Positions 13,871 to 19,934 of a stretch of 45,848 bases of DNA are shown one piece after another. Location of the stretch: the NCBI GenBank assembly GCA_022599915.1, contig JAHZLH010000022.1, positions 1-45,848 on the forward strand. Direction: 5' to 3'. The first letter of the stretch is position 1, and each line of letters begins with the position of its first letter. The position numbers and the translations under genes were made by a program. Under the pieces are notes generated by a model. The model saw nothing but the letters and a program-made list of their open reading frames with translations. It was not told the DNA's origin and searched no databases. The stretch comes from Actinomycetes bacterium. GTDB taxonomy: Bacteria; Actinomycetota; Actinomycetes; S36-B12; GCA-2699445.

Positions 13871-14184
13871 AGGGACTCCTTCGTTGGCCACAACTTATTC
13901 CGCAACTGGGGCTGTTGCGACCGGAATGGACGAACCGGTCGGGGAAATCTGCATCGTTTCGCCGCAGGTCGGCAAGATGTCCGATTTGGGGTCTTAGTGC
14001 CTGGGCCAAAGGGCCGGTGTGTTTGGACAGCGAGTTCTTGGAAATTGCGGATGACCTACGGCGGCAGCGGCCCCCGATCACCTCGATCTGGGGCCGGTGA
14101 GCAGATTCTTGGGAAATCTTTTCGTTTTCTGTTGCGGCAGAGCGGGTGCCCTCATCTCTGCAGTACGAGACAGAGGAGCGAGCC
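13871..14184. other. Divergent regulatory region between SGNH hydrolase and sigma operon
   Basis: 314 bp without a gene. Toward the hydrolase gene: ribosome-binding site AGGAG and a -10-like TAAGTT (minus strand, 13892-13897), with two inverted repeats upstream of it (13901-13919 and 13919-13940). Toward the sigma operon: a hairpin GGCCCCCGATC/GATCTGGGGCC (14069-14095, one mismatch), then AGATT-N7-AATCT (14104-14120) running into TTTTCGTTTTC. The hairpin plus T-rich run looks like an attenuator or the end of a short transcript. Immediately before the small gene is AGAGGAG. Confidence 0.6.
13901..13940. promoter_or_regulatory. Two adjacent inverted repeats, candidate operators
   Basis: CGCAAC-N7-GTTGCG (13901-13919) is followed directly by GACCGG-N10-CCGGTC (13919-13940). 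Both are perfect 6-bp dyads just upstream of the hydrolase -10-like box. No regulator is identified. Confidence 0.4.
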
Positions 14185-14346
14185 ATGAATACGTGGAGCG
14201 AATCGACTACTATCCGTAGACCATTGGGACGGACAGTAGCGGCCCTATTGCTCGGTGTGTCGGCTATCCTGATAGTCGCAGCTGTGGAAGAAAGCGACCG
14301 TTCTGCTGGTAGTGGAGGACCAGTAGCGGTAGCACCGGCGCCGTGA
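14185..14346 (+). CDS. Small single-helix membrane protein coupled to the sigma gene
   Basis: 53-aa protein: short charged N-terminus (MNTWSESTTIRRPLGR), one membrane helix (TVAALLLGVSAILIVAAV, residues ~17-34) and a short Gly/Pro/Ala tail. Start ATG 14185 has AGAGGAG six bases upstream, the best ribosome-binding site here; an in-frame ATG at 14146 does not. Its stop TGA overlaps the GTG at 14343 (GTGA), a possible start of the sigma-factor gene. I do not recognise a family. Position and coupling suggest it works with the sigma protein, for example as a membrane partner or a leader peptide that sets its translation; both are inference. Confidence 0.65.
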   Translation: MNTWSESTTIRRPLGRTVAALLLGVSAILIVAAVEESDRSAGSGGPVAVAPAP

Positions 14347-14423
14347 ACCGCGGTGGAAACGACAGTTCGGTGTCGATTGGCCTCTTTTCAGACGTCGGCG
14401 CCGTGGAGCGACGGAGGTTGGCT

Positions 14424-16325
14424 ATGGGTTCGCATCCTGCAGTTGATGACGGCGGCATCGTCGATACGCTGCACTCCGACCCCAATGAGGGCTTCACACT
14501 GCTTTACCAAGCGTATGCGGAACGACTGTTCGCCTACTGCACCACCGTGTTGCGAGACCGGGACTCAGCGGCTGATGCCAGTCACGACTGCTTGGTGGCG
14601 GCCGTGACCAAAATTGACACCCTTCGCTCCGCCGAACGACTGCGGCCGTGGCTGTTCGCGATTGCCCGCAACGAATGTTTCAAGATCCTGCGCAATCAGG
14701 GCAAGGTCGTGACCGATGAGGAGGCGATTGAGATGCAATCAACCGCCCCCGACATGTCGGCTGGGGTTTCCTCGTCTGAATCGCAGCAGCTGGTGTACGA
14801 GGCGCTGCAGTCGCTGTCGCCGGGAGATCGTGACGTCCTGGCGCTGGCGCTGCGCAACGACCTCGACGCAGCACAGGTGGCTGAAGCCATGGCGGTCAGT
14901 CCCAACGAAGTGAGGGCTCGGCTGTCACGCGCCCGTAGTTCGCTGAACGGTGCCGTCAGTGCGCTGGTATTGCTGCGAGACAAGAATCAGGATTGCCCGG
15001 AACTGCAGGAGATTGTGGCTGGCGCCGGAGCTGAACTCACTCCGCTGCTGCGCAAGCGCATCTCCCGGCACATCAAAGAGTGCGATCAATGTCGCGACAG
15101 TAGTCACACCAAGGCGCTCTCCTACGTCTCGGCCTTCACGCTGCCGCTGGTGTTGGTACTGCCGAAAGGCTTCGAGGCACGCGCGGCGGAGTCTGCTCAC
15201 GAAGCACTGAGCCAGATCGGCGACGGGGCAACAGAAATTGGAACCACCGGTGCCGGTTCCGACGGAACTGTTCCAATCGATGCTGGCGGCGCCTCACTAG
15301 GCGACGGCGGCGGGGCAAGTCAGGTCGCAGCTGCGGCAGGGGCGAGCGCAGGCAAGAAGGTCGCGGCGGTTCTGATGGCATCGGGTCTCGGGGCGGCGGC
15401 CGTCTTTGCCATTACGGTGTGGGTTCCTGGCGGCACCGAGCCACAACCGTTGCCGCAGGCGCAGTCGCCGTCGATTGACGATCTACTCGAGAGCGCCCCC
15501 CGGATCACGGTTGAACCTGGCGCGCCCCAGCAGCAGCAAGGTTCGGCCCAGCGTGGCGAACGAGGGCAGCGGGGCAATGACTCAGAACAGCAGGGAACTG
15601 ATGCCAACCAACCGGGCGGTGACGGCGGTACCGGTGGCCAGGTAGCTGGCAATAGTCAGTCCGGTGGCTCCGGTGGCGGCGGCGGTAATGGTGACTCCGG
15701 CGGTGGCGGCGGTAATGGTGGCTCCGGTGGCGGCAGCGGGGGTAACGGTGGCTCCGGTGGGGAGTCTGGCGGCAGTACTACCGGAAACAGCGGCGGCAGC
15801 AGTGGCGGCGGTAACGCTGGTGGCGGAACCACTGGCGGCTCGGGAACGGAAGATACCGGGGATGCCACAAGCGGCAACGGCGATACCGGCAACACAACCG
15901 GCGGTGGGAAAGAGACTGCTGAACCAACCCCGCAGATTGCCCCCGTTACGAATATCACCGTGGCCGCTCAGCCCGGTTCTACCGCCGGATGCCCCGCTCC
16001 CAAATGGTCGCTGAGTGCCGCTACCAGCGGTGGCCCGGTAGCCAGCGTGGTGGTGGTGTACTCAGGCGCGGCCAACGGCAAAGTGCAACTGTCGGGCGGT
16101 GGTGGAAAGTGGTACGGCTCCTTGGCGCTGCCGCAGGGGATCTATAAGTTTTACGCGGTTGCCTACGGCGAGGCAGGTAATCAGATCCAGTCCGGGACCA
16201 CTGGCGGATCGATCAAGTGTCCCCCACCCGAGACAACTATCAAGCAGTCAGCTGAGCCCAGCCCCAACCTGACGTTGAAGGCGCCTGATCCCAGGTTCAC
16301 CCAAGACCCAGCGCTCAAGCAGTAG
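14424..16325 (+). CDS. ECF-type sigma factor fused to zinc-finger, membrane helix and outside domain
   Basis: A 633-aa membrane-bound sigma factor. Order from the ATG at 14424: sigma region 2 (residues ~22-85, LYQAYAERLFAYC to WLFAIARNECFKIL), region 4 (~127-180, LSPGDRDVLALALRNDLDAA, then a helix-turn-helix), an anti-sigma-like HIKECDQC zinc-finger motif (~215-222), a Gly/Ala linker, one membrane helix (~311-333, VAAVLMASGLGAAAVFAITV), a stalk very rich in Gly, Ser and Asn (~395-485), and a C-terminal domain of ~110 residues with two Cys that may form a disulfide. ATG 14424 has GGAGG six bases upstream; GTG 14343, overlapping the small gene's stop, would add 27 residues. Fused sigma/anti-sigma proteins are known in actinobacteria; the outside ligand and regulon here are unknown. 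Confidence 0.87.
   Translation: MGSHPAVDDGGIVDTLHSDPNEGFTLLYQAYAERLFAYCTTVLRDRDSAADASHDCLVAAVTKIDTLRSAERLRPWLFAIARNECFKILRNQGKVVTDEEAIEMQSTAPDMSAGVSSSESQQLVYEALQSLSPGDRDVLALALRNDLDAAQVAEAMAVSPNEVRARLSRARSSLNGAVSALVLLRDKNQDCPELQEIVAGAGAELTPLLRKRISRHIKECDQCRDSSHTKALSYVSAFTLPLVLVLPKGFEARAAESAHEALSQIGDGATEIGTTGAGSDGTVPIDAGGASLGDGGGASQVAAAAGASAGKKVAAVLMASGLGAAAVFAITVWVPGGTEPQPLPQAQSPSIDDLLESAPRITVEPGAPQQQQGSAQRGERGQRGNDSEQQGTDANQPGGDGGTGGQVAGNSQSGGSGGGGGNGDSGGGGGNGGSGGGSGGNGGSGGESGGSTTGNSGGSSGGGNAGGGTTGGSGTEDTGDATSGNGDTGNTTGGGKETAEPTPQIAPVTNITVAAQPGSTAGCPAPKWSLSAATSGGPVASVVVVYSGAANGKVQLSGGGGKWYGSLALPQGIYKFYAVAYGEAGNQIQSGTTGGSIKCPPPETTIKQSAEPSPNLTLKAPDPRFTQDPALKQ
15655..15860 (+). repeat. Gly/Ser/Asn-coding low-complexity tract (stalk of the sigma protein)
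   Basis: Degenerate repeats of GGTGGCGGC- and GGCTCCGGT-like units encode an extracellular Gly-Ser-Asn stalk. No unit is exactly conserved. Such tracts are prone to length change. Confidence 0.8.
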
Positions 16326-16446: not shown

Positions 16447-17391
16447 GTGTCGCCACAAGATTCGCAGATCAGCCAGGCGGCTCGGGCGCTGGCGGCGGCG
16501 GGTCGAGACGAGTCCCGGCCGTTGCGAGCAGCGGCCGACGTGGTGCGGCTGGTAGCTCACCGCGGCGCCGGCCACCAGCAAACCGATCCGCAGGGGCCAC
16601 CGGAAAATACGCTCGCCGCGGTAGCGCACGGCTTTGCTGTTGGTGCTGATGCGGTAGAGGTGGATGTCTGGCTGACGGCAGACGGAGTCCCGATTCTGCA
16701 TCACGATCGCACCACTGATCGCACGACCGATCGTGTCGGTCGCAGCATTACCGACCTGACCCTGGCCGAAGTCAGCGCGCTGGACGCCGGGTCCTGGAAA
16801 TCTCCTCGCTGGGCGGCGCAGCCGGTTCCCACGTTGGCGGCAGTTGCTGCTGCGGTACCTGCCGAGCGAGGGCTAGTGGTGGAAATTGAGGAAGGGCCAC
16901 AGGTAGTCCCGCACCTGTTAGCTGCCCTGCAGCCGGTAGGTCTGGCCGATGAACAGATCGTCTTCATCAGTTACAACCTGGACACCATTGCGGAGATGAA
17001 GAAATCCGCCCGACAGCATCGGGCCTACTGGATCGTCGACACACTGCCCCGATGGCAACTGGGTGGTTGGTGTCAGGGGCACCGGCGTGGGATCGCGAGC
17101 GAGCGGGTCGGCTACGACGAGGCGGCTAATCCGGGCTGGCTGGCTGAACAAGCCGTGGGTGCTGGTTTGGATGGCCTGGACACTTTGTTTGCCTACCCGC
17201 CGGAACTACCGCAGCAATTAGCCGCTGTCGGCTTGGATTGGCTGGTATGGACCGCTAACGATCCCCGAGCAATCGACAGCTGCATCGATGACGGGGCTTG
17301 GGGGATCACCACCGACAACACCGCGGACGTTGCCCGTTGGTTGTCCGCAGCGGAGATCGCGACGGCTCGAACTGCCGGGATCGCTTTCTAG
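16447..17391 (+). CDS. Glycerophosphodiester phosphodiesterase family protein
   Basis: 314-aa GDPD-family phosphodiesterase with a TIM-barrel fold, which splits glycerophosphodiesters to glycerol-3-phosphate and an alcohol. The domain begins near residue 35 with VAHRGAG, then PENTLAAVAHGF, GADAVEVDVWLTADGVPILHHD (catalytic His and metal-binding Glu/Asp), and ends with LDWLVWTANDP and GAWGITTDN. The first ~30 residues are an extra helical N-terminus; no signal peptide is seen, so the enzyme should be cytoplasmic. The GTG at 16447 follows GGAAGGA by eight bases. Between VGRSITDLT and the barrel end all expected blocks are present. Confidence 0.92.
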   Translation: MSPQDSQISQAARALAAAGRDESRPLRAAADVVRLVAHRGAGHQQTDPQGPPENTLAAVAHGFAVGADAVEVDVWLTADGVPILHHDRTTDRTTDRVGRSITDLTLAEVSALDAGSWKSPRWAAQPVPTLAAVAAAVPAERGLVVEIEEGPQVVPHLLAALQPVGLADEQIVFISYNLDTIAEMKKSARQHRAYWIVDTLPRWQLGGWCQGHRRGIASERVGYDEAANPGWLAEQAVGAGLDGLDTLFAYPPELPQQLAAVGLDWLVWTANDPRAIDSCIDDGAWGITTDNTADVARWLSAAEIATARTAGIAF

Positions 17392-18323: not shown

Positions 18324-19934
18324 CTAGTCACGCGGTAACACCAGGTAGTTGGTACCTCCCATCACTCGCTGGGCAGGCGCCGGACTATTAACCAGATCAG
18401 GCAGTCCCAGCTGCCCCACCTCACCGGTTCCCCAACACCAGATGGTTGCGTCCGTCGCCAGTGAGCAACTGTGCCGGGCTCCGGAGGCGACGGCGCTACT
18501 TGCTGGTGAGTTGGGGACGGTAGTCAGGTTGAAGGCTGGTAGCCCGTTAGTACCGGTGCCGAGTTGGCGTTGGTTTCGCCGTACCTACGGGCTGAACGTC
18601 TCGTTACCTGGCTGCTGGTTCGGGTACCAGGTGAGCTACTGATAGTTCATCTACAGAGAGTAAGGGGCTGGTCGTGTTAGTTGGTTTTTCCCTTGCACTA
18701 CCAGATGCCGTAGCTACTTAGGGAGGAGGCAAGCCTCGAGTTAGGTCTGTGCGTTGGGGGCTTTTGCTAGCTCTGTGGTCGCCCGAGAATGAGATTGTGG
18801 TGAACGTTTAAGAAAACGTGTCAGACCACAGCTGTGCCGCGGGGCGGCAACGACTTGGACGAAACGCTGTTCACCTACCACCGGGATGGGGGTGGCAGCC
18901 GACGGGCCGAGAAGAGGATCGCCACTGCCGAGTTGGCCGATGTGGTTGGCTCCCCAGCACCAGGTTTGTCGACTGCTGTCGATGACACAGATGTGCCCTT
19001 GGCTCAACGAGACATCGAGCAAGGCGCCGAGCCCGGTTGCCACTTGGCGCGGTTTCCCCCACGGTTCATCGCCCTGACCGTGGATGATCGCTGGCGCTTC
19101 ACCCCAACACCAGGCCGAGCCGACTTCGTCGAGCGCGCAGAACCCGCTGCGGTTGCCGGAACCACCGGTGATGAACCGGAACCGATGATCGCCGGGCACT
19201 GTCGCCAGGGTCGATCGGCCGGCCGCGTCTTGCCAGCATTGGGCGGCGCCGAAGGAAGAAAGACCACACCCGGAACCGGCGGAGGTGGCAACAGTGAAGA
19301 ATGGTTGCTCCGTGACCACGGCTGCGGGGGTCAGTTGTACCGTGCCGCCGAACTTGCCCCAGCACCAAGCAGTGCCACTGGTGTCGAGCACGCAGTTGTT
19401 AGCGTCGCCACCTGCGAGCGTCCGGGGTCACAGTGGTGTGACTGGAGTTGGTGTGGCAACTGCCCGTGCGGAATTACTGGTCTCCGGCCCAGTGGCAGGG
19501 TCACCGTCCGGTGCGGCGATGGCCGGAGTAGTGGCAACCGGCTTGAGGAGTCGGACCCGCAGCGTACGACTGCGGACTCGTGGCTTCGTGCTCACTGCTC
19601 GGTACCAGGTTTTCGACTGCCGTTTCGGCGCACGGAGTCGTACCGAAAATCGCCCGCGCTTATTGCTGCGGGTTCTAGCGACTTTCCGCCACTTACTTCC
19701 ACTCCACTGTTGAATCTTCAGCCGATGGCGCGGCGGGAGCGACTGAGCCCGGCCGCGGAGTCGAAATTTGCTGCCGGTCTCTGGCTTCTTGGGTTGGGTA
19801 CGCAACCGGATCTGTTTTGTCGTGGACTTATCGCGCATTGACGGGGCCTCCGCGGCGGCTGCAACGGATGTCAGACCGTTCGGGAGCAGCAGCGCTGCCG
19901 CTGAGGCCGCAATGAGTGCCGTGCCTAGTCGTAT
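18324..19934 (-). pseudogene. Decayed gene for a secreted RCC1-repeat protein
   Basis: One minus-strand frame carries a whole secreted protein, but broken. It starts after a strong GGGGAGGA site at ATA (19934-19932) where ATG is expected; no other start lies before the first stop upstream. A signal peptide follows (GTALIAASAAALLLPNG), then a basic beta-rich domain (residues ~35-165). An in-frame TGA at 19430-19428 interrupts it. RCC1 repeats follow in the same frame: NNCVLDTSGTAWCWG, GFCALDEVGSAWCWG, HICVIDSSRQTWCWGANHIG. After RHSCGLT (about 18820) the match is lost for ~230 bp with several stops, including one at 18741-18743. RCC1 sequence returns still in frame near 18570 (QRQLGTGTNG, RHSCSLATDATIWCWG) to a stop at 18324. 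Confidence 0.8.
18585..18820. other. Segment inside the RCC1 remnant with no RCC1 match
   Basis: About 230 bp, more AT-rich than its surroundings, separating two RCC1-coding blocks. It contains multiple stops in the host frame and small dyads: ACGTTT-AAGA-AAACGT at 18804-18819 and ACCTGG-N15-CCAGGT around 18606-18632. No terminal inverted repeats or target duplication typical of an insertion element could be recognised. Confidence 0.5.

Follow-up and report, generated by a model that had tools for sequence, protein, structure and literature searches.

How is a sigma factor that carries an anti-sigma domain, a membrane helix and an outside domain in one chain held and released, and does a small membrane protein encoded just upstream take part? 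This question is raised by a locus of a marine actinobacterium that is the host of such a fused sigma gene. The window, which is the whole stretch of DNA that was analysed, is one complete contig of 45.8 kb (G000:C22) from a genome of 2.44 Mb (75 contigs, 98.65% complete). The closest genome to it (G002) matches contig PAAU01000054 of the MAG "Micrococcales bacterium" isolate NAT138. In the data searched, the fused sigma region has one orthologous locus, L032, and all ortholog comparisons given here (identity and pN/pS) are between two sequences, that of the window and that of L032. The features of the locus are collected in Table 1.

Table 1. Features of the fused sigma locus and its neighbours, with positions in the window; residues are numbered in the 633-aa protein.
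Feature	Position	Strand	Basis or remark
Divergent secreted SGNH/GDSL-like protein, 716 aa	11741..13891	-	GDSYSSGEG, GGND and late HPND motif, by eye
Shine-Dalgarno-like AGGAG of the small ORF	14174..14178	+	6 nt before its ATG; read from sequence
53-aa single-helix membrane protein (or secreted peptide precursor)	14185..14346	+	MNTW...VAPAP
27-codon in-frame stretch from GTG, most likely untranslated leader	14343..14423	+	pN/pS 1.02 between two orthologues
Shine-Dalgarno GGAGG of the sigma gene	14413..14417	+	6 nt before ATG 14424
Fused ECF sigma / anti-sigma / membrane protein, 633 aa	14424..16325	+	
Sigma region 2	14502..14702	+	Pfam PF04542, residues 27-93
Sigma region 4	14787..14945	+	Pfam PF08281, residues 122-174
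Predicted zinc anti-sigma (ZAS) domain	14976..15179	+	Ligands C191, H216, C220, C223 (14994, 15069, 15081, 15090); hydrophobic segment 229-250
Predicted transmembrane helix	15360..15425	+	Hydropathy; KK before helix (N-in, C-out)
Gly/Ser/Thr/Gln/Asn-rich low-complexity stalk	15459..15938	+	
Two-Cys Ig/FN3-like beta-sandwich, predicted	15939..16256	+	C523, C599
Glycerophosphodiester phosphodiesterase (GDPD), downstream of sigma gene	16447..17391	+	Pfam PF03009, E 3.7e-33; syntenic in L032

A reading of this DNA from its letters alone (the sequence-only reading) had placed sigma regions 2 and 4 in one frame with an HxxxCxxC segment and one membrane helix, and these parts were all recovered here. 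Sigma70_r2 (E 9.9e-10) and Sigma70_r4_2 (E 1.2e-9) both match over the Pfam cut-offs (ORF 14343-16325, + strand) and TIGR02937 matches with 64.3 bits against a cut-off of 42.9; with its regions 2 and 4, the window protein is an ECF (group IV) sigma factor. The first 220 codons after ATG 14424 are under purifying selection (pN/pS 0.20). The HxxxCxxC segment reads HIKECDQC and belongs to a C191-x24-H216-x3-C220-x2-C223 site whose four residues are invariant in 16 relatives. The same C-x24-H-x3-C-x2-C site is near-universal in a survey of 63 proteins, and every one of the 61 scannable relatives has a Cys 22-30 residues upstream of the His, the distance being exactly 24 in 47. While zf-HC2 is sub-threshold in the window protein alone (E 0.09), it is weakly matched by 14 of 25 family members, and a profile of the anti-sigma domain searched against all PDB sequences gave a single match, the anti-sigma RsiW (E 0.0092). 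Judged by its H-x3-C-x2-C motif and the fourth ligand upstream, this part is a predicted class I zinc anti-sigma (ZAS) domain. An AlphaFold2 model of the sigma/anti-sigma part had a pLDDT of 44, too poor to show the contact between the two, and was discarded. A single stretch of the protein is strongly hydrophobic (19-mer mean 2.09), and KK lies on its cytoplasmic side. The hydrophobic segment 229-250 falls below the helix threshold (19-mer mean 1.47); it could be a second membrane helix, which would place the tail inside.

The same reading had the stop of the small ORF overlapping a GTG start of the sigma gene, with translational coupling through that overlap. The overlap (GTGA, at GTG 14343) is kept in frame in L032. 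From GTG 14343 to ATG 14424, the codons give a pN/pS of 1.02 and 5 of the 27 residues are shared with L032; homology to all relatives starts near residue 28 (counted from GTG 14343), and candidate starts in the other relatives lie at a similar distance from region 2. A GGAGG precedes the start of the L032 counterpart as well. Because the 27 upstream codons are unconstrained, and because of the homology limit and the GGAGG, ATG 14424 is the most likely start of the sigma gene, which would then encode 633 aa; the GTG start with its stop/start overlap was rejected on the pN/pS and the homology limits. With this start, a 77-nt gap separates the stop of the small ORF from the sigma ATG and each gene has its own Shine-Dalgarno site, so coupling through an overlap is unlikely.

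Beyond the helix, the long stalk described earlier as Gly/Ser/Asn-rich contains 58 Gly and 7 Pro in 160 residues and is also rich in Thr and Gln, and the two-Cys terminal domain follows it as claimed. An AlphaFold2 model of the terminal domain from two sequences is an eight-strand sandwich (pLDDT 82.8), which solved Ig/FN3-type structures match with Z up to 10.3 (90 residues, rmsd 2.4). Ig/FN3-like folds are common and the fold implies no ligand. The top Foldseek match, CBM56 (TM 0.53), was not taken as a sign of sugar binding, given that numerous unrelated Ig/FN3 domains reach similar scores. A profile of three close copies matched the domains that end the fused sigmas of four other families with 96.4% probability (P 1.4e-9, both Cys spanned), compared with 0.4% for BACON-type tails; therefore, by profile comparison, the two-Cys Ig/FN3-like domain is a recurrent module of fused sigmas and no new domain. 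The earlier view of this domain as undescribed holds in that a Pfam search of it gave no family above the cut-off, but not for its fold, which is an Ig/FN3-like sandwich common to fused sigmas of other families. The outside domain is 61% identical between the window and L032, and this constraint in two orthologues, together with the recurrence in other families, suggests that the domain has a job.

Many families of the class, at least seven besides that of the window, have full-length relatives of the sigma and anti-sigma part, and the same architecture occurs in Thermomicrobium. This agrees with the statement that fused versions exist in actinobacteria, where the architecture is already known (ECF48/52/53-type fusions). 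The tails of the 63 survey proteins include CAP (10 proteins), BACON (9), glycosyl hydrolase core (2), PKD (1) and right-handed beta-helix (1), and many have a Pro/Thr-rich tail only. NPCBM-bearing fusions that fit the published ECF52 description were found in a Streptomyces-like genus, a label that rests on named plasmid relatives. CAP, glycosyl hydrolase, BACON, PKD and NPCBM are normally secreted domain types. Because homologues carry these domains at the position of the window protein's tail, its C-terminus would lie outside the cell, as the sequence-only reading had it, and the topology is predicted to be N-in, C-out. The further idea that force on the stalk acts as a signal gained no support: the composition of the stalk varies, and in many relatives the tail is Pro/Thr-rich and lacks a terminal domain.

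Several of the relatives have features of their own. In genome G006, which has at least four fused-sigma paralogues, one fused sigma (L034 31-2553, +) carries an outside tail of five PKD repeats. Three others (L104 1844-3496, -; L105 1920-3734, -; L110 768-3560, +) bear a CAP domain, a glycosyl hydrolase core and a right-handed beta-helix on the outside, and these tails are possible enzyme-like heads on a sigma factor. At L067 and L069 (genomes G382 and G164), two fused sigma genes stand in tandem with starts ~1.6 kb apart. Outside Actinomycetota, the Thermomicrobium roseum plasmid gene TRD_RS13910 (L141 2465-3775, +) encodes the same sigma and zinc anti-sigma part and is annotated as a sigma factor only.

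These features are consistent with a one-protein transmembrane switch, in which a membrane-anchored ECF sigma factor inhibits itself and is freed by an outside signal, probably via intramembrane proteolysis, and we hold this reading to be rather probable. Sigma regions 2 and 4 would be held inside the cell by the attached zinc anti-sigma domain (C191, H216, C220, C223 and the hydrophobic fourth segment), while one helix would cross the membrane and the flexible, low-complexity stalk would hold the disulphide-type Ig/FN3-like binding domain outside. At the outside domain, a signal or ligand would most likely lead to a first cut outside, followed by site-2 protease cleavage within the membrane, and the sigma part could go to RNA polymerase once the anti-sigma part is removed or opened. 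Proteolysis and ligand binding are the steps that we infer. The genome encodes an M50 site-2 protease, as nearly all genomes do. For fused sigmas of the ECF48/52/53 kind, the literature proposes release by regulated proteolysis (PMC5826349 and PMC8999054), and in S. coelicolor the ECF52 protein SCO4117 is active in a truncated form from which zinc finger, helix and CBM are missing (PMC5826349). The sigma part of the window protein would probably be released by proteolysis as well.

The switch could instead be turned from the inside: the CHCC zinc site would react to cytoplasmic oxidants as in RsrA and loosen the sigma part, and the helix and tail would only position the protein. The site has the N-terminal Cys that was found necessary for oxidative release (PMC4960319), and it is conserved family-wide whereas the tails vary or are absent. 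However, a zinc motif can be purely structural, as in RsiW (PMC7406223), and the outside domain is constrained and recurrent, which makes such a sensor unlikely here. We find it similarly improbable that a ligand shifts the conformation of the whole chain and that the sigma part is active on its tether or is passed on with no proteolysis. Fused C-terminal extensions that act without proteolysis do exist in ECF41 and CorE (PMC8999054). In contrast, the data on the best-studied relatives, namely the SCO4117 truncation and IutY, which is released by Prc and RseP (PMC8999054), fit release from the membrane, and the M50 protease also speaks for it, if weakly given how widespread it is. The outside-signal switch therefore remains the reading that we prefer.

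Synteny around the fused gene is kept in L032 only and covers the SGNH-like gene, the small ORF, the sigma gene, the GDPD gene and two further genes. The SGNH/GDSL-like protein is 60% identical in L032, and a Pfam search of it gave nothing above the cut-off; it is a candidate target of the sigma factor, which is a guess. A shared promoter block upstream of the small ORF was looked for, but the window and L032 have no 9-mer in common there, and a search for a sigma-70-type promoter site found none. The third genome of the genus (81% complete) is without the 53-aa gene and without the fused sigma gene, which fits co-occurrence of the two but proves little. Farther away, the window encodes a GH18 chitinase-like protein with SQEP repeats that starts at the contig edge (2-1402, +, E 5e-83) and an RCC1-repeat protein (18741-19391, -), and L032 has, by eye, an RCC1-like gene in the corresponding position.

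The 53-aa single-helix protein, which had been noticed upstream of the sigma gene, is conserved in L032 with 76% identity, in frame and with mostly synonymous change. Its ORF has a pN/pS of 0.20 in its own frame compared with 1.17 and 4.9 in the other two, it follows an AGGAG, and the conserved pattern is MNTWxES...RRPLxRxxAALLLGxSAILIVAAVEES...VAPxP. By these comparisons it is a real gene under purifying selection. No relatives outside the genus were found among 166 genomes of the order, where the search gave weak partial matches only (E 3e-4 or worse, mostly within longer ORFs), and none were found in viral contigs and phages. Among the loci examined outside the genus, no homologue lies upstream of other fused sigma genes, and an unrelated hydrophobic ORF with a Shine-Dalgarno-like site does so at 3 of 59 fused-sigma loci.

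The 53-aa protein may be a dedicated membrane co-regulator that binds the helix or stalk of the fused protein and sets the threshold for its cleavage, which we put forward tentatively and regard as somewhat doubtful. If true, a switch that elsewhere consists of one part would here be made of two. Its possible action on the sigma switch has only conservation and adjacency in its favour: wherever one of the two genes occurs, in two genomes, the other adjoins it, but the whole neighbourhood is kept in L032 and adjacency alone is thus weak evidence for a functional link. We give an even chance to the ORF having no role in the switch, as a lineage-specific small membrane protein or as a leader that sets expression by its translation. 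Its restriction to the genus and its absence upstream of the other fused sigma genes examined agree with this, as do the 77 nt and the separate Shine-Dalgarno sites; since the fusion occurs elsewhere without the 53-aa protein, the fused switch would work without it. A mere leader is unlikely, however, because amino acids are conserved and not translation alone. The protein might also be a secreted peptide precursor, with a possible cleavage at VAA|VEES and a product of ~20 residues as the signal for the outside Ig-like domain. As read from the sequence, the n-region is basic, 17-18 hydrophobic residues are present, V-A-A resembles a cleavage site and the acidic/Pro tail is conserved, but a hydrophobic stretch of this length could serve as a stable anchor, and we consider this reading very unlikely. 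A PepX-like peptide was examined as a precedent and rejected, having no adjacency to a fused sigma gene. As a conserved membrane neighbour, the 53-aa protein is the less familiar part of the locus and a concrete candidate accessory factor.

Fused membrane sigmas are predicted in several ECF groups and, according to reviews, SCO4117 alone has been studied in Actinobacteria. In our survey, one and the same inner switch, whose zinc site is near-invariant, comes with a wide range of outside heads (Ig-like, BACON, CAP, glycosyl hydrolase, beta-helix, PKD and NPCBM), and therefore swapping heads between relatives would be a direct test of the role of the outside part.

Compared with named systems, the window protein shares with ECF52 (SCO4117 of Streptomyces coelicolor) a single chain of ECF sigma, zinc finger, membrane region, low-complexity stalk and outside domain. 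The stalk of ECF52 is Pro-rich whereas that of the window protein is Gly-rich, and the outside domain of ECF52 is an NPCBM-type carbohydrate-binding module, whereas a Pfam search of the window protein gave no NPCBM match and its own domain is the two-Cys Ig-like one. In the tree, ECF52 was represented by 11 NPCBM-bearing stand-ins; these form their own clade (support 100/100) without the window protein, which groups with its order, although trees from short, divergent domains are only a guide for deep branches. Membership in ECF52 was rejected on tail, stalk and tree, the last with the stand-ins. ECF48 and ECF53, likened here by description only, have a C-terminal zinc finger fusion with one to two membrane helices in Actinobacteria (PMC8999054), and the window protein agrees with this description. 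It resembles the class I anti-sigma domains of RsrA, ChrR and RsiW in its H-x3-C-x2-C, a ligand ~24 residues upstream and a hydrophobic fourth segment, but these are separate anti-sigma proteins whereas its anti-sigma part lies mid-chain in a sigma factor. RsrA has the zinc ligands C11, H37, C41 and C44, and its x25-x3-x2 spacing is near-identical to the x24-x3-x2 of the CHCC site in the window protein (PMC4960319). IutY of Pseudomonas putida (ECF243) likewise has sigma and membrane anti-sigma in one chain; it belongs to Gram-negative cell-surface signalling with a siderophore receptor, and the available part of PMC8999054 reports no Ig-like tail for it. For the 53-aa protein, YhdL/YhdK with sigma-M in Bacillus subtilis offers a precedent only, in that a second membrane protein from the same operon is required for full anti-sigma activity (PMC6827917), while the anti-sigma factor there is separate and no homology is expected.
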